Shown here: positions 1-33,374 of the stretch, piece after piece
How positions within the stretch are numbered: position 1 is the first letter of the stretch
How the letters are laid out: the number at the start of each line of letters is the position of its first letter
Source: Oscillospiraceae bacterium
GTDB lineage: Bacteria > Bacillota > Clostridia > Oscillospirales > Oscillospiraceae
DNA: 64,000 nucleotides
Direction of reading: 5' to 3'
Assembly: GCA_017501355.1 (NCBI GenBank)
Contig: JAFVXA010000037.1
Coordinates: 1 to 64,000 of the forward strand
Position numbers and translations under genes: made by a program
The notes under the pieces: generated by a model
What the model saw: only the letters and a program-made list of their open reading frames with translations
What the model was told of the DNA's origin: nothing
Database searches by the model: none

Positions 1-60
1 GCCGCCGAGCTAAATACGGCGTGGATACACTACTGGCTGGAGGGAGGGCATCAACTGTGA
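1..60 (+). CDS. C-terminal end of a gene upstream of the sensor kinase, probably its response regulator
   Basis: An open frame runs from base 1 to a TGA at 58-60 (19 residues, ending LEGGHQL). The TGA overlaps the GTG start of the sensor kinase as GTGA, a typical translational coupling. The position immediately before a GHKL kinase suggests a LytTR-type response regulator, but the fragment is too short to identify by sequence. Confidence 0.5.
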   Translation, partial: AAELNTAWIHYWLEGGHQL

Positions 61-1343
61 CTTTACTGGATTGGTCAACTGTGTGGTCATTGATCCACGT
101 ATTTGTGCTGAACGCACTTTTATATGAGCCCCGCCTGCCAAAGAAAAAGGCTCTGATCCTTACCATTGCTCTGATGGGGCCGCTGGCCGCTTACAACGCA
201 TGGTTTTTCGTGCACTTCGGCAACGAACTGGCGGGACAGTTGGTACTGTTTAACTGCACCATCCCCAGCCTCATTTTCTTTATGCTTATGGCAAAGCACC
301 GCAACGGACGGCTGCTGTTCACCTTCTGCCTGTCGGACACGATCTCTCTGGAGATCATCTGCATCACCCGCCTGATCGACGATGCCATTGGACTGCCCGA
401 TTTCTGGGTGCTGTTTATTCTGCGGCTAATCGTCTGGCCGGTGCTGGAGTTCGTAGTTATCAAATGGCTTCGTAAGCCCTATCTCGTCCTTCAGAATGCA
501 GTGCAGAAAGGCTGGGGCGGGTTCGCCGCCATCACACTGCTGTTTTATGTGATCCTGGTGGTCATGTCCAGCTATCCCACTGTCATTCAGAACCGTTTGG
601 AGGAGTTGCCTGCTCTGCTGCTGGTCATGGCTCTGATGCCGCTGATCTACTGGAATATCCTGACAACATTGTTCCGGCAGCAGGAACTCCACGAAACAAA
701 GCAGAAGGAACAGCTTTTACAGGTGCAAACTGCAATGCTGAAGCAGCGTATTGAACAAACCTTGGAAGCGGAAAATCAAATCTCCATCCATCGCCATGAC
801 CTGCACCATCAGTTGCAAGTCATCAAGACGATGCTGGAGAGCGGCGAGATCCATGAGGCGCAGGATTATATTGAGGCATCGCAGGAAACGCTGAACGGTA
901 CGAAAAGCAGACATTGGTGCCTGCATCCGGTATTGGATGCCGTATTTTCCGCCTATTTCCAGCGGGCAGAGGCGAAAGGGATCAAAGTCGAAGCAGACAT
1001 TGATATTCCTGCTGATATTCCGGTCAATGCTGTTGAACTGTCCACGGTCTTTGCCAATGCGTTGGAAAATGCGATCCATGCGGTCAGCAATCTCCCGCAG
1101 GAGCACCGGGTGATTCGCTGCCGGTGCATCTGCCAGCCGCAGCTGATGTTCTATGTTTCCAATCCCTATTCCGGCGAAGCGCGCTTCGATGAAAATAATC
1201 GCCCTGTTGCAGACAGTGCCATGCACGGCATTGGCACTCGCTCCATCGCCGCCTACTGTGAGAAGTACGGTGCGACCTGCGAGTACAGTGCGAAAGACGG
1301 CGTGTTTGTTATTCGGATCGCGCAGACGATATGGACGAACTAA
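57..1343 (+). CDS. GHKL-domain sensor histidine kinase (AgrC/HPK10-like)
   Basis: Membrane sensor kinase of a two-component system, probably controlling functions of the mobile element. About six hydrophobic segments fill the first ~200 residues. They are followed by a coiled-coil linker and the dimerisation/phosphoacceptor motif HRHDLHHQL, with His247 as the likely phosphorylated residue. An N-box with Asn at about 334 and 338 (ANALENAIHA) and a GIGTRSIAAYCEKYGA G-box complete the GHKL ATPase. I chose the GTG at 57 over the GTG at 21: a GGAGGGAGGG site lies 8 bases before it, and it overlaps the TGA of the preceding gene. The signal it senses cannot be read from the sequence; related kinases sense peptides. 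Confidence 0.88.
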   Translation: MTLLDWSTVWSLIHVFVLNALLYEPRLPKKKALILTIALMGPLAAYNAWFFVHFGNELAGQLVLFNCTIPSLIFFMLMAKHRNGRLLFTFCLSDTISLEIICITRLIDDAIGLPDFWVLFILRLIVWPVLEFVVIKWLRKPYLVLQNAVQKGWGGFAAITLLFYVILVVMSSYPTVIQNRLEELPALLLVMALMPLIYWNILTTLFRQQELHETKQKEQLLQVQTAMLKQRIEQTLEAENQISIHRHDLHHQLQVIKTMLESGEIHEAQDYIEASQETLNGTKSRHWCLHPVLDAVFSAYFQRAEAKGIKVEADIDIPADIPVNAVELSTVFANALENAIHAVSNLPQEHRVIRCRCICQPQLMFYVSNPYSGEARFDENNRPVADSAMHGIGTRSIAAYCEKYGATCEYSAKDGVFVIRIAQTIWTN

Positions 1344-1516
1344 AGGAAATATGCTTTTTGACGGCGCACCATTTCGGTGCGCCGTTTTGTCATTTTGTGC
1401 TCAATTGCCGTTCAATGTAGAAACCACCTCTTTTTGATACGATTTCGGTGCAGGGGGGAACCCCCACGGCAGATCCATCAAAGGAGACTGATTTTTATGG
1501 GAATGGAGGTGAGCAC

Positions 1517-1975
1517 ATGCCCTGCCTTTTGCGCAGAGACAGCCGAATTTCACCCTATATGGCATATCCGAGATTTTTGCTGACGATGGATATCAGCGAA
1601 ACAGCGAAGCTGATCTATGTACTGCTGCTGGATCGGGCGAGGCTGTCAATGAAAAATGATGGCTGGGAAGATGAAACGGGTTATGTGTTCATCTACTACA
1701 CGATCAAATCACTGGCGGCGGTCAGCGGCAAAAGCGAGATGACGGTGAAAAATGCACTGGCGGTGTTGGAACAAAAGGAAATCATCTGCCGACAGCGGCA
1801 GGGAGCAGGACTGCCCAGCAAAATCTATGTAAAGGTGCAGACAGAAAACTGTCCCGCCGAATGGACGAGCTTTGAGCCGCAGACAGACAAGAAACGATCT
1901 GCAAGTAATAAGCAAAGAAAAATGAGTGAGAAACCTATGAGAAATTATGACTATGAGGAGGGGGACAGTTTGTGA
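1517..1975 (+). CDS. Replication initiator protein A (RepA_N-type winged-helix protein)
   Basis: Short 152-residue form of the RepA N-terminal domain found on plasmids and integrative elements of Firmicutes. The N-terminus has the family pattern of basic residues followed by SPYMAYPRFLL. A winged-helix body follows, with a helix around VSGKSEMTVKNALAVLEQKEII that resembles a DNA-recognition helix and wing. The C-terminus is charged. The ATG at 1517 has GGAGG 7 bases upstream, so the longer frame beginning at 1448 is not used. Its TGA overlaps the GTG of the DnaC-like gene (GTGA), so initiator and helicase-loader homologue are coupled. This suggests that the excised element can replicate, which is inference. 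Confidence 0.78.
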   Translation: MPCLLRRDSRISPYMAYPRFLLTMDISETAKLIYVLLLDRARLSMKNDGWEDETGYVFIYYTIKSLAAVSGKSEMTVKNALAVLEQKEIICRQRQGAGLPSKIYVKVQTENCPAEWTSFEPQTDKKRSASNKQRKMSEKPMRNYDYEEGDSL

Positions 1976-2811
1976 AATCGATCTCCGTGAGCTTGGAGAA
2001 TTTTCTCCGACCGGTACAGCTCCGGGAGGATGAATATTTGGACGAAGAGACAAAGCTGATCTACTGCAGTCGATGCAGGACAGCGCGGCAGAAACGGTTT
2101 GAGCTGCCGGATAGACTCTTTGAACCTAGGTGTATGTGTGCCTGTGAAGCGGAGGCGTATGAGCAGCGGGAGAAGGAACGGAAGCAACGGGAGTTCCTGA
2201 GCAGAGTGGCAAAAAACCGAAGCGTGGGTTTGCCTGACCCAGAGCTGCGAAAGCATACCTTTGAAAATGACTTGGGGTACAACCCCAAACAGATGAACAT
2301 GGCAAAGCGCTTCGTAGAGAACTGGAGTGAGTTCCAAAAGAACTCCATGGGTCTGCTCCTGTGGGGAGATGTGGGAACAGGCAAAAGCTTTCTTGCCGGG
2401 TGCATCGCCAATGCGCTGCTTGACAAAGGGGTGCCGGTGATGATGACAAACTTCGCAAGACTGCTGAACAGGCTGACGGATATGTATTCCGGGGACCGAA
2501 ACGCGTATGTGGATAGCTTCCATTCCTTTCCGCTGCTGATCATCGATGATCTGGGTGTGGAGCGAAACTCGGAGTTTGCGAGAGAGCAGGTCTTCCACAT
2601 CATCGACAGTCGGTACCGCAGTCAGCTTCCCATGATCGTGACCACAAACTTGACGATGGAAGAACTGAAGAACCCGGCTGATCTTGCGAGGGCAAGAATC
2701 TATGATCGGGTGCTGGAACGATGCACACCGATCCGGGTAAACGATCAAAATATTCGGAACTTAAACACGAACGCAAACATGGCAAGAGCGAAGCAACTGT
2801 TGGGGAGGTGA
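1972..2811 (+). CDS. DnaC/IstB-like ATP-binding protein
   Basis: AAA+ ATPase of the DnaC/IstB helicase-loader family, 279 residues. Walker A is GDVGTGKS and Walker B is LLIIDDLG. A Cys-rich stretch (CSRC, then CMCAC) near residues 26-55 could bind zinc. The start is GTG at 1972, with GAGGAGGGGG upstream, overlapping the previous stop. In mobile elements such proteins usually act with a RepA-like initiator to load a replicative helicase. Transposon IstB is an alternative relative, but no IstA transposase is present, so the replication role is favoured. Confidence 0.85.
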   Translation: MKSISVSLENFLRPVQLREDEYLDEETKLIYCSRCRTARQKRFELPDRLFEPRCMCACEAEAYEQREKERKQREFLSRVAKNRSVGLPDPELRKHTFENDLGYNPKQMNMAKRFVENWSEFQKNSMGLLLWGDVGTGKSFLAGCIANALLDKGVPVMMTNFARLLNRLTDMYSGDRNAYVDSFHSFPLLIIDDLGVERNSEFAREQVFHIIDSRYRSQLPMIVTTNLTMEELKNPADLARARIYDRVLERCTPIRVNDQNIRNLNTNANMARAKQLLGR

Positions 2812-2815
2812 GAAC

Positions 2816-3037
2816 ATGACGGAGCAGACAAAGAAATTGCAGCAGGCAAAACACCGTATGGAAGAAGCCAGGGCACGAAACCGAAAGAAGGAACGCAGTG
2901 CCAGAACCCGAAGGCTCATTCAGGAAGGGGCGATTTTGGAAAGCGTATTTCCCCAAGCGAAATTTATGGAGCTGGAAGCGTTGAAGACGATTTTGGAACA
3001 GCGGTTGAGGGTGGAGAACACGAATAACGGAGGCTGA
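2816..3037 (+). CDS. DUF3847 family small basic protein
   Basis: A 73-residue, highly charged, mostly helical protein with many Arg and Lys residues in its first half (RARNRKKERSARTRRL). It starts five bases after the DnaC-like gene stop and precedes the oriT-like region and relaxase. I recognise it as DUF3847, a family commonly next to MobA/MobL relaxases in Clostridia. The composition and position suggest a DNA-binding mobilization accessory protein, but no function is established. Confidence 0.75.
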   Translation: MTEQTKKLQQAKHRMEEARARNRKKERSARTRRLIQEGAILESVFPQAKFMELEALKTILEQRLRVENTNNGG

Positions 3038-3344: not shown

Positions 3345-5036
3345 ATGGCGATTTATCATTTGGAAGCGAAGGTGATCAGTCGGGGTACAGGGCGATCAGC
3401 CGTAGCTGCGGCGGCATACATGAGTTGCTCCCAAATCCTGAATGACTACGATGGAGTGAAGCACGACTACACCAGAAAACGAGGACTTGTCTGGCAGCGG
3501 ATCTTCCTCCCGGAATATGCGCCAGCCGAGTGGTCGGACCGTGGTACACTTTGGAATGCCGTAGAGGAAGCCGAGAAAACCAAGGACAGTCGATTGGCAC
3601 GAGAGTTCGTCGTGGCGTTGCCTATTGAGATGGGGAAAACGGAATGGGAGAGTCTACTGACGAAATTTGTCAAAGATCAGCTTGTCTCAGATGGGATGTG
3701 TGCCGATGTGTGTATCCACGATACAGATGGGTATAACCCTCATGCTCATATCATGGTGACGGTACGGCCGCTGGCTGAAAACGGACAGTGGCAATACAAG
3801 ACAGAAAAAGAATATCTATGCATCCGTGATGGTGTGGAAATGGGCTTCACCGGAGCGGAGTTCAAGCAAGCTCAAAAAGAAGGCTGGGAGAAACAGTACC
3901 AATACAAGGTGGGAAGGAAAAAGGAATATATGACACCCTCTGCGGCGGAAGCGGCGGGATATGAACGGGCATCCAAGACACCAAAGAGTACCCGCTTTGG
4001 ACGGCAGAATCCCATTGCCGCCCGGTGGAACAGCGACGAGCAGTTGGTGCTGTGGCGTTCGGCCTGGGCAGATGTGACCAATCGCTATTTGGAGCGATAC
4101 GGACATGATGAGCGCATCGACCACTGCAGCCATGCAGCGCGTGGTATTTTGGAGCAACCCACCATTCATGAGGGCGTGACCGCGAGGGCTATGGAGGAGC
4201 AAGGCTTCATAGCAGATCGCTGCGAACTGAACCGACAGATCAAGGCAGATAACAAGCTGCTGCGGGAACTGCGAAGTATCCATGAAAAAATCGCAGAGGC
4301 GCTTAGGAATACGGTGTTTGCCCTTGCGGAAGCAATGGAAACGGTGCGTCGAAATATGCTGATTTTCCGGTATCAAATCCTGTACGCGCGATTTGGTCGG
4401 AGCAGTATGAGAGAAAAACTGGCAGGTGTAAAGCCGGTGCTCCGGCAGTATTCTGACATTGTGGGTCAAATCAAAACTTTAAGCCGGGAGCGGAAGGGAC
4501 TGCTGGATGAAAAGAAAGCAACCTCTGTACTGAATATTCTGAAGCAGCGGGAACTGGCAAAGCGGATTGCTCAGCTATCCGAGGATATTGAGGAACTGCG
4601 CAGCGAAAAAGCTATGATTCTCAGCCGCTTCGACAAGACGAATGATGACGGCATGAAGGAGGTAAAACAGTGGGTGACATCCATGGAAAGCTCCCTGCAG
4701 CGCTTGGAGCAGGCAGAAACAAAATACCAAGCAGAACTGGACGGGGCGCTGCGTCAGTTCCACGACCTGACGCAGGAAGCGGAAACTGTGGATAAGTCCG
4801 AGCTTCAGAATCAGCGACAGCTTCTGCGAAAGTCAAACACTCAGGATGCCAAATCCAAAATTCAGCAGGTTTATGGAAAGCAGTACCGTGCAATGACCAT
4901 GATGGATGCGGAGCGGGATGTGGAAAGCCTACTCAGGGATGACGAAAAACGGTTGAAACCTTTGGTGGAAAAAACATCTGTCAGACAAGAGGTGAAGCCC
5001 CGAAAAGAGCAGTCTGACCGGAGACATGAAAGGTAA
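3345..5036 (+). CDS. mobA: MobA/MobL family relaxase
   Basis: DNA strand transferase that nicks oriT and leads the transferred strand (MOBQ class), 563 residues. The N-terminal relaxase domain has Tyr25 (AAAAYMS), at the position of the catalytic tyrosine of RSF1010 MobA, and the metal-binding pair His133/His135 in NPHAHIMVTVRPL. Residues from about 290 to the end form long charged coiled coils rather than a recognisable primase or helicase. No type IV secretion genes or coupling protein are in the window. The element therefore either carries them further left or depends on another element for transfer. A terminal dyad (GCGTCCCA...TGGGACGC) follows the stop. Confidence 0.92.
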   Translation: MAIYHLEAKVISRGTGRSAVAAAAYMSCSQILNDYDGVKHDYTRKRGLVWQRIFLPEYAPAEWSDRGTLWNAVEEAEKTKDSRLAREFVVALPIEMGKTEWESLLTKFVKDQLVSDGMCADVCIHDTDGYNPHAHIMVTVRPLAENGQWQYKTEKEYLCIRDGVEMGFTGAEFKQAQKEGWEKQYQYKVGRKKEYMTPSAAEAAGYERASKTPKSTRFGRQNPIAARWNSDEQLVLWRSAWADVTNRYLERYGHDERIDHCSHAARGILEQPTIHEGVTARAMEEQGFIADRCELNRQIKADNKLLRELRSIHEKIAEALRNTVFALAEAMETVRRNMLIFRYQILYARFGRSSMREKLAGVKPVLRQYSDIVGQIKTLSRERKGLLDEKKATSVLNILKQRELAKRIAQLSEDIEELRSEKAMILSRFDKTNDDGMKEVKQWVTSMESSLQRLEQAETKYQAELDGALRQFHDLTQEAETVDKSELQNQRQLLRKSNTQDAKSKIQQVYGKQYRAMTMMDAERDVESLLRDDEKRLKPLVEKTSVRQEVKPRKEQSDRRHER

Positions 5037-5080: not shown

Positions 5081-5311
5081 TTAATCATTTTCCAAAAGCT
5101 TTGAGGGAGGAATCCCAAGAACGTCTGCGATTTTGAACAGCGTTTCCAGTGAAACACCTCTGACCGTTCCGGTGCCTTCAACTTGGCTCAAGAAGTTTAC
5201 GCTTTTGCCAATCTTCTCTGCGAAAACTTCCTGTGTGAATCCAGCCTTCTTGCGATAGTAGGCGATCTTCAAACCCATGGTAACATATCTTTCGGGGTAC
5301 TCAGTACGCAT
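5081..5311 (-). CDS. XRE-family helix-turn-helix repressor
   Basis: A 76-residue single-domain Cro/CI-type regulator. The helix-turn-helix lies in residues ~13-66 (LKIAYYRKKAGFTQEVFAEKIG, then SVNFLSQVEGTG). The start at 5311 is supported by GGAGGTGGG directly upstream. It is divergent from the SLOG gene. A palindrome in the shared intergenic region (5380-5396) is a plausible operator. A similar half-site lies beside the recombinase promoter, so it may restrain excision genes; this is inference. Confidence 0.88.
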   Translation of the reverse strand: MRTEYPERYVTMGLKIAYYRKKAGFTQEVFAEKIGKSVNFLSQVEGTGTVRGVSLETLFKIADVLGIPPSKLLEND

Positions 5312-6018: not shown

Positions 6019-6047
6019 TTTACATGATAGTTACCATGTGATATAAT
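6019..6047 (+). promoter_or_regulatory. Sigma-A type promoter of the serine recombinase
   Basis: TTTACA, 17-base spacer, TATAAT, about 40 bases before the recombinase start. The promoter is flanked by the dyad GTTTAC (6018-6023)/GTAAAC (6051-6056). The vegetative-type boxes suggest expression is not restricted to the mother cell, unlike Bacillus spoIVCA. Confidence 0.65.
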
Positions 6048-6086
6048 AGAGTAAACAATATCACATATCGAAGAAAGGAGAAACGG

Positions 6087-7895
6087 ATGAAAAGAAATGA
6101 AGACATGATCGCAATCTATTCCCGTAAATCCAAGTTCACCGGTAAGGGTGAGAGTATCGGCAATCAGGTGGAACTTTGCAAAGAGTATGTCCGAAATATG
6201 TTTGGCGAGGAATATGTGGATCGCTGCGTGGTGTTTGAGGATGAGGGATTCTCCGGCGGCAATCTGAAACGACCCGATTTTCAGCGGATGATGGCAGATG
6301 TGCGAAAGCGGAAGTTCAAGGCTATTGTAGTCTATCGTTTGGACAGAATCAGTCGAAATATCAGTGACTTCACCGGATTGATCGACGAATTGACGAAGTT
6401 GGACGTATCCTTTGTGTCCATCCGTGAACAGTTCGATACGAGCACCCCGATGGGCAGAGCCATGATGTACATCATCTCTGTGTTCTCTCAACTGGAGCGT
6501 GAAACCATCGCTGAGCGTATTCGGGATAACATGCATGAGCTGGCAAAGACGGGGCGCTGGCTGGGAGGCACTGCCCCTACGGGATTCAAGTCAGAAGCTG
6601 TCAGTAAGGTGACGGTGGATGGCAAAACCAGAAAGTCCTTTAAGCTCGTTCCGATCCCGGAGGAAGCGGAGATCCCCAAGCTGATTTTTGATCTCTACAC
6701 CGAAACGGATTCTTTGACCGCTGTGGAAGCGGAGCTGCTTCGCCGCAGAATAAAGACCAAGCAGGGGAAGGACTTTACCCGCTTTGCCATCAAAGGAATT
6801 TTGCAGAACCCGGTTTATATGGCGGCAGACGAGGATGCTTACCGGTACTTCATGGAGAGGGAAGCGGACGTGTGTTTCCCAAAAGAAGCCTTTGACGGAA
6901 CCTGTGGCATGATGGTGTATAACCGCACCGATCAGGAGAAGGGAAGAACGACCATCCTGCTTCCTGTGAGTGACTGGATCATTGCCATTGGTCAGCATCC
7001 GGGCTTGGTTCCTTCTAAACAGTGGATCAAGGTACAGGAATCGCTGGAGAGAAACAAGTCCAAGGCATACCGCAAGCCCCGAAACAACGAAGCCCTGCTG
7101 ACCGGGCTCCTGTTCTGTTCCTGCGGCGAAAGAATGTACCCCAAGCTGTCCCAGCGCAAGACCGCTGACGGAGAACCGATCTACACCTATGTATGTAAGA
7201 TGAAGGAACGCAGTAAGCGGGAACGGTGCAATCGACGCAATGCCAACGGCAATATTTTGGATGCATCGATCATTGAGCAGATTAAGTCCTTGTTGGAGCA
7301 CGACAGCAGCTTCATTACCCAGTTGGAAAAGAGCAGACAATTCTATACCGGCAATCGGGAACAGTATAAAACCCAGATGGATGAACTCAGAGCAGAATAT
7401 GCAGAGAATACAAAAAAGATCAATGGCTTGATCGATTCTTTGAGTATGGTGGGTGACTCCATTGCAAGACCTCATGTTCTCGGTCGCATTGAGGAACTGA
7501 CGCAGATCAACCGGGATGTGGAGAACCGCATCCATGAGCTGGAAGGGCTGATCAATGTCGATGCGCTCAATGATGCAGAGTTTGATTTGCTGCGGCAGAT
7601 GCTTTCCATGTTCCGCGCCAGCATCGATGATATGTCCATTGAAGAAAAACGGGCAGCCATCAGGACCGTCGTTCGCAAGGTGATTTGGGACGGAGTGAAT
7701 GCCCGTGTGGTGTTGTTTGGTGCAGATGAGGGCGAGATCGAGTTCCCTGATATGGTGGATCGCATTGGTCACATGGATGACGAAGAGAGCGAAGAAGGCC
7801 CCCTTGAAGCCTTTTTAGACGTGGATTATGAGGAGTTTGAGGACGAAAACTCTCTTGCGGAGCCTAAAACGCATTGGGGAGAGGATAGCAAATGA
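6087..7895 (+). CDS. Large serine recombinase (skin/ICE integrase, SpoIVCA/TndX-like)
   Basis: Site-specific recombinase of 602 residues that integrates and excises the element. The resolvase catalytic domain (about 7-155) carries the nucleophile Ser12 in IYSRKSK and the YRLDRISR and QLERETIAERIR motifs. It is followed by the recombinase domain (about 165-290), a zinc ribbon (CSCGERMYP through CNRRNANG, about 345-390) and a coiled coil (about 400-490). The C-terminus is acidic. The start has a GAAAGGAG site upstream. Its last sense codon and TGA fall in AAATGA, where AATGA is the junction core with sigK, so the attachment site supplies its stop codon. Confidence 0.95.
   Translation: MKRNEDMIAIYSRKSKFTGKGESIGNQVELCKEYVRNMFGEEYVDRCVVFEDEGFSGGNLKRPDFQRMMADVRKRKFKAIVVYRLDRISRNISDFTGLIDELTKLDVSFVSIREQFDTSTPMGRAMMYIISVFSQLERETIAERIRDNMHELAKTGRWLGGTAPTGFKSEAVSKVTVDGKTRKSFKLVPIPEEAEIPKLIFDLYTETDSLTAVEAELLRRRIKTKQGKDFTRFAIKGILQNPVYMAADEDAYRYFMEREADVCFPKEAFDGTCGMMVYNRTDQEKGRTTILLPVSDWIIAIGQHPGLVPSKQWIKVQESLERNKSKAYRKPRNNEALLTGLLFCSCGERMYPKLSQRKTADGEPIYTYVCKMKERSKRERCNRRNANGNILDASIIEQIKSLLEHDSSFITQLEKSRQFYTGNREQYKTQMDELRAEYAENTKKINGLIDSLSMVGDSIARPHVLGRIEELTQINRDVENRIHELEGLINVDALNDAEFDLLRQMLSMFRASIDDMSIEEKRAAIRTVVRKVIWDGVNARVVLFGADEGEIEFPDMVDRIGHMDDEESEEGPLEAFLDVDYEEFEDENSLAEPKTHWGEDSK
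7891..7895. other. Attachment-site core AATGA at the element-sigK junction
   Basis: AATGA completes the recombinase reading frame (A-AA TGA) and simultaneously starts the SigK-homologous frame as AAT GAA (Asn-Glu). SigK similarity (NELLMHFRAQKK) begins exactly here, and the residues before it do not match SigK. As I recall, the Bacillus subtilis skin element recombines in the same AATGA at the same Asn-Glu codons. The matching left attachment site is outside the window. Confidence 0.75.
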
Positions 7896-8256
7896 ACTGC
7901 TGATGCATTTTCGTGCCCAGAAGAAGCTGCAGGGGGAGGTGTCCCTGTCCGAGTCCATTGATACGGATAAGGACGGCAACTCCCTGATGCTGATGGATAT
8001 TGTAGGTGTGGAGGACACCATGCTGGAGGATCTGCAGGAGAAGGAGGATTGCCTGAAGCTGCGCAAACTGGTAAAAACCTGCCTCACTGAACAGGAAGCC
8101 TACATCATTCGCGAGCGCTACGGGCTGGACGGCGCAGCGCCGAAGATCCAGCGGGATATCGCAAAAGCCTGCGGAATTTCCAGAAGCTATATCTCCCGTA
8201 TCGAGAAACGGGCACTGCAAAAATTGCAGCAGGCATTGGAGGGGAGCGCGGATTGA
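7891..8256 (+). CDS. sigK: 3' segment of interrupted sigK (sporulation sigma factor K, regions 2.4 to 4.2)
   Basis: The 121 residues from the junction match the C-terminal part of mother-cell sigma factor SigK (SpoIIIC half). NELLMHFRAQKK is followed by SLSESIDTDKDGN and, near the end, the region 4 helix-turn-helix KIQRDIAKACGISRSYISRIEKRALQKL. There is no start codon or ribosome binding site for this part; it can only be expressed after joining to the 5' half. The open frame extends upstream to 7828 only by chance, overlapping the recombinase gene. The intact reading frame suggests the two halves are still under selection, so the arrangement may be a developmental gene interruption rather than a dead gene. 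Confidence 0.9.
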   Translation, partial: NELLMHFRAQKKLQGEVSLSESIDTDKDGNSLMLMDIVGVEDTMLEDLQEKEDCLKLRKLVKTCLTEQEAYIIRERYGLDGAAPKIQRDIAKACGISRSYISRIEKRALQKLQQALEGSAD

Positions 8257-8434: not shown

Positions 8435-8698
8435 ATGATGATGCAGTATCGTAACAGTGCGTATAATAACACCGCATCTGCCACTTTCGCAGAGGCTTCT
8501 TCCGCATGCGCTTGCGCCGCTATGCCTTCCAATAACGCCATTATGCTGATTATGGGCGCCATTATGATGGCGTCCATTATTATTTTCAGCAGCATGATGA
8601 TTCGCAGCATGATCGCTCTGCTGGTACTGGGCTTGCTGGGCATTATTGTACTGCTGGGGATCAGTGAACAATCGAATCAGCCAAAGGGCTGGGCATAA
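8435..8698 (+). CDS. Small Ala/Met/Ile-rich membrane protein of unknown function
   Basis: 87 residues, not recognised. The first third is Ala/Ser-rich with two cysteines (SSACACAAM). The rest is two adjoining hydrophobic segments rich in Met and Ile (NNAIMLIMGAIMMASIIIF and MIALLVLGLLGIIVLLG), so an integral membrane protein is likely. GAAAGGAG lies 8 bases before ATG 8435. It has its own vegetative-type promoter and terminator, so it is a monocistronic unit between sigK and the liv operon and not obviously tied to either. Confidence 0.7.
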   Translation: MMMQYRNSAYNNTASATFAEASSACACAAMPSNNAIMLIMGAIMMASIIIFSSMMIRSMIALLVLGLLGIIVLLGISEQSNQPKGWA

Positions 8699-8850: not shown

Positions 8851-10038
8851 ATGAAAAAGAAGGTATTTGCACTCGTAATGGCTATGGTTATGGTAGTCGG
8901 CTGTCTCGCAGGCTGCGGTGGCGGCAATGACGATGGCGGCGCATCCGAAGGCGGCGAGTCCTCCGGCGCAGCTGTTGTGAAGATCGGTGGTATCGGTCCT
9001 CTGACCGGCGCTGCTGCTACTTACGGCATTGCAACCAAGAACGGCGCACAGATCGCTGTTGACGAGATCAACGCACTCGGCGGCGTTCAGTTCGAGCTGA
9101 ACTTCCAGGATGACGAAGCTGACGGCGAGAAGGGCGTCAATGCTTACAACAACCTGAAGGACTGGGGCATGCACGTCCTCTATGGCTGCACCACCACCGG
9201 TTCCTGCGTGGCTGTTTCCGGTGAGACCTATGCTGACCGTTACTTCCAGCTGACCCCCTCCGCTTCCTCCACCGACGTCACTGCCGGCAAGGACAACGTG
9301 TTCCAGGTTTGCTTCACTGACCCCAACCAGGGCGTGACCGCAGCTGACTTCGTTAAGGATCTGGGCAACGTCTCCAAGGTTGGCGTTCTGTACAACAACG
9401 GTGACGCTTACTCCGCAGGTATCGCAGTGGCATTCGTTGCTCACGCTAAGGAAATCGGTCTGGAAATCGTGGCAGAGACCACCTTCCCCGATGACTCCAA
9501 CACTGACTTCTCCGCACAGCTGAACGAATGCAAGGCAAACGGCGCTGAGATGGTCTTCATGCCCATCTACTACACCCCCGCATCCCTCGTTCTCGCACAG
9601 GCTAAGTCCATGGGTTATGCTCCCGTGTTCTTCGGCGGTGACGGTATGGACGGTATCCTCGGCATGGAAGGCTTCGATGCTACCCTCGCTGAAGGTCTGA
9701 TGCTGATGACCCCCTTCAACGCTTCCGCTACCGATGAGCGCACCCAGAAGTTCGTTGAGACCTACACCAACAAGTACGGCACCGAAACCCTGAACCAGTT
9801 CGCAGCTGACGGTTATGACTGCATCTATGCGATCTACGAGGCATGGCAGGCAGCCGGCTGCTCCACCGATATGTCCGCACAGGATATCTGCGAGGCTATG
9901 GTGGCTCAGTTCACTTCCTCCTCTTTCAGCGTTGACGGTCTGACCGGTTCCGGCATGACTTGGGGCACCAATGGTGAAGTTTCCAAGGCTCCCATGGTCG
10001 TGAGAGTTGAAAGCGGCGCATATGTTACTGTTGAATAA
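8851..10038 (+). CDS. livJ: Branched-chain amino acid type ABC transporter substrate-binding lipoprotein
   Basis: Periplasmic-binding-protein type I (Leu/Ile/Val-binding family) receptor, 395 residues, anchored outside the membrane. Residues 1-22 form a lipoprotein signal ending in the lipobox LAGC. A Gly/Ser/Asp-rich linker follows, then IGGIGPLTGAAATYG at the start of the ligand-binding domain. AGAAGGAG precedes ATG 8851, so the GTG at 8845 is not chosen. It is the first gene of the livJHMGF cluster and is separated from the permease genes by a stable hairpin, which probably raises its transcript level. The exact amino acid or small amide bound cannot be decided from sequence. Confidence 0.93.
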   Translation: MKKKVFALVMAMVMVVGCLAGCGGGNDDGGASEGGESSGAAVVKIGGIGPLTGAAATYGIATKNGAQIAVDEINALGGVQFELNFQDDEADGEKGVNAYNNLKDWGMHVLYGCTTTGSCVAVSGETYADRYFQLTPSASSTDVTAGKDNVFQVCFTDPNQGVTAADFVKDLGNVSKVGVLYNNGDAYSAGIAVAFVAHAKEIGLEIVAETTFPDDSNTDFSAQLNECKANGAEMVFMPIYYTPASLVLAQAKSMGYAPVFFGGDGMDGILGMEGFDATLAEGLMLMTPFNASATDERTQKFVETYTNKYGTETLNQFAADGYDCIYAIYEAWQAAGCSTDMSAQDICEAMVAQFTSSSFSVDGLTGSGMTWGTNGEVSKAPMVVRVESGAYVTVE

Positions 10039-29700: not shown

Positions 29701-29836
29701 ACGGATCGCCCCTTTCTGTCGCATCTGACCTAAATATGGTATCACACTTTTTAATAGGGTACAACAGAAAGTTCCGCATCAAGGGGACTGGATTTTTCAG
29801 AGGGGATATGATATACTCTCATTACAACCAAATCGG

Positions 29837-30026
29837 CTCAGGATCATCCTGCAAGGGATGTCAACAGGGAAATGGAAGTGGGAATCTTCCGCGAGGCCGT
29901 CACTGTGAAACGGTGCGAATGCACCTGAAGTCAGAAGACCTGCCTGAGTATTCGTACAAAGAACCGCGGCACCCGGTCGAATTTGTGGGCGTACTGCGTC
30001 CGGACCTCTCTTTTTCTTTGTACGAA
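29837..30026 (+). promoter_or_regulatory. Cobalamin riboswitch with expression platform
   Basis: P1 CTCAGG (29837-29842) pairs with CCTGAG (29943-29948). The conserved CAACAGGGAA, CCGCGAGGCCGTCACTGT-type core and the B12 box AGTCAGAAGACCTGCC are all present. Downstream, a perfect 12-bp inverted repeat (29951-29962 with 30015-30026, TTCGTACAAAGA) forms the probable expression platform just before the DUF4430 gene ribosome binding site. Confidence 0.93.
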
Positions 30027-33102: not shown

Positions 33103-33123
33103 GACAAAAATCGTATTTGCCGC

Positions 33124-33234
33124 CCTATCTTCTCTCATCCAGACTATACTGTCGGTACCGGAATCGCACCGGTTCCTGCGCTGCTGCGCTCGCGGACTAT
33201 ACCGCCGGTGGGGAATTGCGCCCCGCCCCGAAGA
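33124..33234 (-). promoter_or_regulatory. FMN riboswitch (RFN element)
   Basis: Minus-strand conserved blocks are present in order: TTCGGGGCGGGG, TTCCCCACCGGCGGT, GAACCGGTGCGATTCCGGTACCGAC and AGTCTGGATGAGAGAAGAT. The class is unambiguous, and the gene controlled is ribU. Confidence 0.96.
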
Positions 33235-33374
33235 CACGCTGTTCACTTGTGTTTTCCTGCGCTCATTATACGACAGGGATTTAGCGATTGCAACAGGATT
33301 TTTCCGGAAGAAACTCGCGGTTTACAAGGGGGAAGAAAAGGGACTATAATGAAGCAGAGAAAGGGGGGAGCGCC

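Follow-up and report, generated by a model that had tools for sequence, protein, structure and literature searches.

A putative mobilizable element between the two halves of sigK and a possible reciprocal gene-splitting switch with its serine recombinase

Results

A recombinase gene that runs into half of sigK

The window, by which we mean the whole stretch of DNA that was analysed, spans 64 kb from base 1 of contig C35, in a draft genome (G000) of 2.15 Mb on 62 contigs that is estimated to be 95% complete. Its left end carries genes for a sensor kinase, a replication initiator, a DnaC-like ATPase, a relaxase and, at the end of the element, a large serine recombinase, and the 3' half of sigK follows (Table 1). 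The stop codon of the recombinase, the TGA at 7893-7895, overlaps the Asn-Glu codons of sigK. The frame opened at 7894 reads ELLMHFRAQKK... and matches the SigK models best (NF004471, model positions 114-229, 1e-35; TIGR02846, 112-226, 2e-33), which bears out the preliminary description, where the recombinase gene was said to end as the C-terminal half of SigK continues. An assignment of the fragment to SigE was considered and rejected: the SigE model matches it more weakly (6e-26 vs 1e-35 for NF004471), and SigE is a separate gene at C35:99100.

Table 1. Features at the left end of the window (coordinates of the window; a slash marks the crossover)
Feature	Position	Strand	Basis
Response-regulator-like gene, 3' end; start at the end of C47	1..60	+	Read by eye from contig ends
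GHKL-type sensor kinase	3..1343	+	Pfam HATPase_c_5, 3e-14
RepA_N replication initiator	1448..1975	+	Pfam, 2.8e-12
DnaC/IstB-like ATPase	1972..2811	+	Pfam IstB_IS21, 1e-17
DUF3847 protein	2816..3037	+	Pfam, 4e-10, 40.1 bits vs cut-off 40
MobA/MobL (MOBQ-type) relaxase	3345..5036	+	Pfam MobA_MobL, 6.5e-87
Small HTH_3 protein	5081..5311	-	Pfam, 1e-11
Predicted sigma-A-like promoter of the recombinase, TTTACA-17-TATAAT	6019..6047	+	Pattern reading
Large serine recombinase, 602 aa	6087..7895	+	Resolvase, Recombinase and zinc-ribbon domains (Pfam)
attR core, GGATAGCAAAT/GA	7882..7895	+	Junction reading
sigK 3' half	7894..8256	+	SigK profile match; 5' half at G000:C47 744-1079 (L099)

Because the window opens at a contig end, the left part of the element was sought on other contigs. 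On C47, a sigK 5' half ends in ...CIEN and is followed by foreign DNA; its match (C47:759-1115, SigK profile 6-123) is the sole other SigK-type match ending at the crossover codon, and the two halves placed together read CIEN-ELLMHFR in frame. A search of the whole genome with SigK models at E<=1e-30 returned three places, namely SigE at C35:99100, the 3' half and one 5' half, and thus no second sigK in this genome of 95% estimated completeness. The preliminary description had held that an intact sigK elsewhere, together with a missing 5' half, would speak against an interrupted gene; the search found no intact copy, and the 5' half is present. sigK is split between the same two codons as in relatives, with both halves left in the genome, and an uninterrupted sigK of the same type occurs in 73 of 80 related loci. 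The left junction reads GAAAAT/CCTATCC and the right junction GGATAGCAAAT/GAAC, with AAAT as the core common to both. A second AATGA had been expected at the far junction; it reads AAATCC instead.

C47 terminates inside a response-regulator-like gene, and C35 opens with the 3' end of such a gene and then its kinase, as judged by eye. The two contigs therefore likely carry parts of a single element of about 22 kb, some 13.35 kb on C47 and 7.89 kb on C35, separated by an estimated 0.6 kb or so. What divides the sigK halves is most likely a mobile element that has a relaxase gene.

The RepA, DnaC-like, DUF3847, relaxase and sensor kinase genes reported earlier in the interrupting DNA are all matched by Pfam (DUF3847 just above its cut-off), and the window side has in addition a 185-aa protein with no Pfam match. 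On the C47 side, a double HTH_3 protein comes first from the sigK junction, followed by an AAA_11/AAA_12 helicase, whose best PADLOC match is MkoA (3e-37); further on, a Phd-like antitoxin (below cut-off) accompanies a Fic/Doc protein, and there are also an NB-ARC/TPR protein and a protein of 1969 aa that has both SLH and Listeria-Bacteroides repeats. The relaxase is 28-39% identical to MobQ relaxases of plasmids among the matches listed (12 rows), and in several of the listed MOBQ-type mobilizable plasmids the relaxase likewise has a DUF3847 neighbour; the G000 element is integrated in sigK instead. The element had been called an ICE or IME. A mobilizable character is supported by the predicted relaxase gene, which marks an integrative and mobilizable element, and by the mobilization genes of some relatives at the same site. 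The scan gave no conjugation or phage structural domain among the proteins covered (Pfam, both sides; the gap of about 0.6 kb and small ORFs lie outside it), so "mobilizable" is the most that holds and the term ICE does not.

An inverted repeat, ATGTGATAT and ATATCACAT (6036-6044 and 6058-6066, by eye), lies on both sides of the -10 element of the predicted recombinase promoter. A pattern of the TTTACA-17-TATAAT type precedes the recombinase in 4 of the 15 stretches examined (G000, G115, L087 and G392).

Elsewhere in the window, an FMN riboswitch (33123-33239, minus strand) and a cobalamin riboswitch (29823-29961, plus strand) were observed, and just 3' of sigK lies a small hydrophobic ORF of 87 aa (8435-8698, plus strand) with no Pfam match.

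The recombinase family adjoins sigK in related genomes

At E<=1e-150 the recombinase was found in 24 of 394 genomes of the order, G000 included, and all 24 adjoin part of SigK, which is the 3' half in 23 of them and, in G069, the 5' half in opposite orientation. Both sigK halves are on one contig in ten of these genomes (G126, G366, G373, G377, G435, G475, G511, G567, G606 and G632), as they are in L025. Among 80 sigK loci taken from named genome records, 7 are interrupted; in 6 of these the 3' half immediately follows the recombinase. In L032 (Papillibacter cinnamivorans DSM 12816) the SigK 3' half follows a ATAGCAAAT arm at position 10001; no recombinase was seen within 10 kb there, and no adjacent 5' half.

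At class level, 44 of 391 genomes pass E<=1e-90. Among the 27 new loci read, 17 have a same-strand SigK 3' half downstream, 4 face a 5' half (L279, L293, L294 and L296), and for 6 the sequence fetched contains nothing that matches SigK. The recombinase stop codon is at the junction in 11 of the 17, and several class-level recombinases at sigK are broken or contain stops. The tie to sigK holds throughout the close clade and loosens outside it. Relatives on viral contigs have a SigK half within the fetched stretch in 4 of 41 cases; many of these contigs end near the recombinase, so the remainder are uninformative on sigK.

Some arrangements deserve a record of their own. In L134/L157 (G069), L227, L279, L293, L294 and L296 the element looks inverted, its recombinase facing the SigK 5' half. 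In four class-level loci (L287, L288, L289 and L290) the sigK halves are about 1.65 kb apart with little beyond the recombinase between them, which makes these near-minimal sigK elements. In G129 the SigK 5' half is itself on two contigs, C2 and C21 (L221, L222), and another recombinase (24%) lies near the first piece.

The attachment site lies within the recombinase gene

In 29 of the 31 elements whose right junction could be read, the recombinase stop is an out-of-frame TGA contributed by the AAT-GAR codons of sigK: its T is the final base at the Asn codon position, and its GA comes from the Glu codon. Two elements differ, G115 because it has AAC at this codon and L025 because its recombinase stops 60 nt earlier. 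The public relatives P0070, P0047 and P0096 continue past EDSK into other sequence, as is expected where the crossover codon is AAC. The circular form was simulated by a script that joined the two element ends and followed the recombinase frame across attP. Among the 23 elements with a visible left end, the joined frame continues for 164-215 codons into the double-HTH gene in 15; six others stop 8-37 codons past attP (G126, G366, G406, G563, G567 and G582), L025 stops before attP, and G525 runs off the contig after 34 open codons. A homologue of this tail is in the recombinase frame in all 15 order-level elements that have one, G585 showing a frameshift further on; at class level the tail is in frame in G727 and out of frame in G773, giving 16 of 17 combined.

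Such a fusion is also present in public data. P0083, a protein of 813 aa from a contig of 6391 nt, is a natural recombinase-HTH fusion that reads ...RWGEDSK/CNPIAKDF... across the join and then continues into the HTH tail. None of the other 119 relatives among the matches listed (of 7995) has an HTH domain in the Pfam column, which is consistent with mostly integrated copies, and a search for fused proteins only, which relies on exact words, gave P0083 alone among 1045 candidates. The same type of tail is joined to sigK-derived sequence in P0223.

The conserved ends, typically AGGATAGCAAAT/GA at attR and GAAAAT/GCTATCCT at attL, give a palindromic attP; the left arm of the G000 element is the variant CCTATCC. 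A search for the attP pattern, which would miss this variant arm, gave 0 matches in 394 order genomes, and its three matches on viral contigs were rejected as unrelated hairpin-like stretches. As reconstructed from the joined ends, attP lies inside the recombinase gene, and integration splits sigK and the recombinase gene reciprocally; excision would restore both.

In one scan the crossover codon is AAT in all 7 interrupted loci vs 29 of the 73 intact ones (Fisher p 0.003), and the enlarged set has AAT in 30 of 31; at class level AAC is found at 2 of 17 right junctions (L271 and L274). The preference for AAT could stem from selection for the stop codon or from a base that the recombinase needs, two effects that are not separable here.

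As a separate observation, the public protein P0123 (322 aa) consists of the SigK N-terminal half fused in frame to the HTH tail.

The double-HTH tail is conserved and follows truncated sigK

The tail is under constraint, with dN/dS values of 0.12, 0.12, 0.17, 0.22 and 0.34 in five pairs and saturation in two further pairs. The linker before the HTH domains, that is, the first 45 codons, is weakly constrained (0.26-1.15), and a YAPLYI-type motif stands exactly 45 codons past attP in 9 of the 13 elements in which it was located.

In the integrated element the tail and sigK share a strand. Reading of the truncated SigK frame ends 4 codons past the junction in 13 of 23 elements, and after 43 in G000; in G475 and G606 its stop overlaps an ATG of the tail. 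Within the element, a tail start first becomes possible 12-279 nt past the junction (within 100 nt in 13 of 15). In 6 of 15, sigK itself offers an ATG or GTG, out of frame and 12 nt before the tail codons of attL, from which the tail could start. There is little room for a separate tail promoter, and transcription from the sigK promoter is thus the economical reading. By published accounts sigK is under sigma-E control; a strict sigma-E pattern had 0 matches upstream of sigK here, and 18 of 500 shuffles had one.

An AlphaFold model of the tail alone has a mean pLDDT of 82.5 and matches HTH domains of the SinR/Cro type, with 1 PDB match at E<=0.001; against a viral library it gave 8 matches, which are repressor or HTH proteins where named. 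As modelled, the tail is a tandem XRE-type DNA-binding protein, a fold that does not separate a directionality factor from a regulator. The model of the 813-aa fusion has a mean pLDDT of 41, too low to read a contact between tail and recombinase. A scan of viral contigs for the tail found 3 loci, one of them after a SigK 5' half and 0 fused to a recombinase. In L318 and L319 (IMG/VR contigs), the HTH tail with the left arm of attP stands behind a phage terminase gene, not sigK.

Element and host gene probably have separate histories

Recombinase and SigK 3'-half identities are weakly correlated (Spearman 0.16; 378 pairs from 28 loci). The genomes G129 and G511, of different families, share 97% identity in the recombinase vs 39% in SigK; for G373 and G377, also of different families, the values are 95% vs 43%, and for G000 and G115, 85% vs 59%. 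Considering that the two identities are decoupled, the sigK elements likely move horizontally.

The cargo was surveyed by a Pfam scan of nine elements, partly pooled and on a subset of ORFs, with L079 and L087 covered up to 10 kb. Mobilization genes are present in four of the nine: G000 (MobA_MobL), G392, G435 and G511. G392, from another family, has RepA_N, DnaC-like and MobL genes in the same order as G000; a PF03432 relaxase from the G435/G373 pool was placed at L173:14228-15175 by its HIDRNHIHNH motif; and G511 has a MobC/NikA-like gene together with a BrxL-type ATPase. Other cargo includes rhamnose-catabolism genes (G435/G373 pool), EutB and molybdenum-cofactor genes in a 78-kb element (G366), and methylase/helicase genes with TnpV (G115). 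No phage structural family is among the matches listed for the scanned elements (best 25 families in three of the scans).

Discussion

Skin elements are usually taken as domesticated prophage remnants. The C. difficile skin element resembles the element described here in its place in sigK, its large serine recombinase (CD1231) and its sigma-A-type promoter (PMC5025042). According to the published description, that recombinase is constitutively expressed, a factor under sigma-E and SpoIIID control (CD1234) starts excision, and excision restores sigK (PMC5025042). In C. difficile the factor is encoded apart, by a gene of 72 aa under a sigma-E promoter of its own, whereas the candidate here is the severed tail of the recombinase itself, placed behind sigK; the relaxase further sets the G000 element apart from C. 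difficile skin as described. Transferable DNA in sigK is not unprecedented, since the phages MMB025 (Alicyclobacillus) and phiS63 (Clostridium perfringens, as cited there) occupy this gene (PMC13141910). MMB025, however, has phage particles, phage genes and a TCTC core according to that report (PMC13141910), unlike the G000 element, and its recombinase is 24% identical to that of G000. The gin element of Bacillus cereus is likewise a non-phage element in a mother-cell gene that is excised in sporulation, but it lies in gerE and has three recombinases, and the passages on it describe no split recombinase (PMC5595907).

As in G000, the suicidal (SSV-type) integrases of archaea have attP inside the integrase gene, which integration splits (PMC8371274). 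Those are tyrosine recombinases; the serine recombinase of G000 keeps its catalytic, recombinase and zinc domains in one piece, and we therefore regard it as working like a suicidal integrase and not as a member of that class. In the integration-dependent immunity described for mycobacteriophages, attP also lies inside an element gene and a shorter protein is made when integrated; the gene cut there is a repressor, and the part lost is a degradation tag (PMC4557955). We recognised no prior report of a relaxase-bearing sigK element or of a self-split serine recombinase in the literature, judged on titles and abstract openings.

We lean towards the explanation that a relaxase-bearing element splits two genes reciprocally at the skin site and that the severed double-HTH tail, predicted to be made together with sigK in the mother cell, would likely trigger excision. 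In growing cells, the short recombinase would be made from its sigma-A-like promoter and would not excise alone. When mother-cell regulators switch on sigK, the transcript would pass through truncated sigK into the tail gene, and the tail would act in trans as a directionality factor, a candidate excision trigger. Excision would leave a restored sigK on the chromosome and a full-length recombinase-tail gene on the circle. The relaxase could nick this circle and a helper mobilize it, and it could integrate into the sigK of another cell. The directionality-factor role is suggested by the position and frame of the tail, and the element would in this way serve as a developmental switch. In support, Spo0A and SpoIIID are above cut-off in the G000 genome. 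Against it, the fusion is known from one protein, the C47-C35 link is our own reconstruction, and excision, circle and transfer are predicted from sequence. The 0 matches to the attP pattern (which would miss the variant arm of G000), the absence of a strict sigma-E match upstream of sigK, the SinR/Cro-type fold, which is no mark of a directionality factor, and the weak constraint on the linker also count against it. Engineered integrase-RDF fusions integrate less well (PMC5737554), and a circle that encodes a fused enzyme would thus be poorly suited to enter a new host. Of the 23 elements whose left end is visible, 7 lack the tail (G525 being undecided), and G773 has it out of frame, so not every sigK element needs it.

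Other explanations deserve to be weighed. The tail may be part of the integrating enzyme or an autoregulator, such that the full-length fusion, made from the circle alone, integrates, loses its HTH part through that integration, and leaves the start of excision to another element or host factor. The tandem XRE-type fold and the persistence of elements with no tail agree with this, and since engineered integrase-RDF fusions are described as integrating poorly (PMC5737554), the fused form fits an integrase better if the tail is no RDF; alone, however, such a role leaves the conservation of the tail and its place on the sigK strand after truncated sigK unexplained, and we consider it unlikely. 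It is also conceivable that reading through attP is incidental, attP overlapping the 3' end of the recombinase gene and the tail being an independent neighbouring regulator whose frame is inherited. The elements share ancestry, so their agreement in frame does not amount to 15 independent events; seven of the 23 have a short extension or none in place of a tail, G773 is out of frame, and the linker is weakly constrained. But all 15 order-level tails are in frame behind open linkers, the motif stands at codon 45 in 9 of 13 located cases, and a natural recombinase-tail fusion is predicted in P0083, which make coincidence quite unlikely.

The element may instead be a simple parasite that no longer leaves and whose insertion has put an end to sporulation in the lineage. 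The broken or stop-containing recombinases at class level would fit this, and the departure of the element is itself our reading of the sequence. The open recombinase, relaxase and sigK halves, the in-frame halves and the retention of Spo0A, SpoIIID and SigE argue against such decay, which we judge very unlikely. That the split is an artefact of assembly or binning could be suspected in a 62-contig draft whose C47 and C35 pieces have no sequence link, but the same junctions recur across many genomes, and L025 and 10 of 24 order genomes have the two halves on a single contig; an artefact is extremely improbable.

Returning to the reciprocal split, we propose tentatively, and with somewhat less than even confidence, that sigK and the serine recombinase form one gene-splitting switch: integrated, a host stop codon would shorten the recombinase and the sigK promoter would drive the tail; excised, an intact sigK would be left and the fusion would be carried on a transferable circle. 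If true, the element would sense the developmental state of its host through its own severed part, placed behind the promoter of the interrupted gene, and excision, rejoining both genes, is predicted to tie movement of the element to spore formation. This would be a route for transfer elements to occupy an essential developmental gene harmlessly. It would also be the first self-splitting serine recombinase and the first self-splitting integrase in Bacteria, contradicting the statement in a review that self-splitting integrases are exclusively archaeal (PMC8371274), and a natural counterpart of the engineered integrase-RDF fusions (PMC5737554). More broadly, what appears here is a family of sigK elements that moves horizontally, carries varied cargo (relaxases, metabolic islands and defence-like genes) and repeatedly lands in one sporulation gene of distant Clostridia.

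Apart from sigK, a related recombinase (37%) was observed in a C. difficile record, L265 (NZ_CP149669.1). Entered as a "plasmid", this circular sequence of 24 kb consists of an ethanolamine-utilization cluster and this one recombinase and looks like an excised chromosomal circle.
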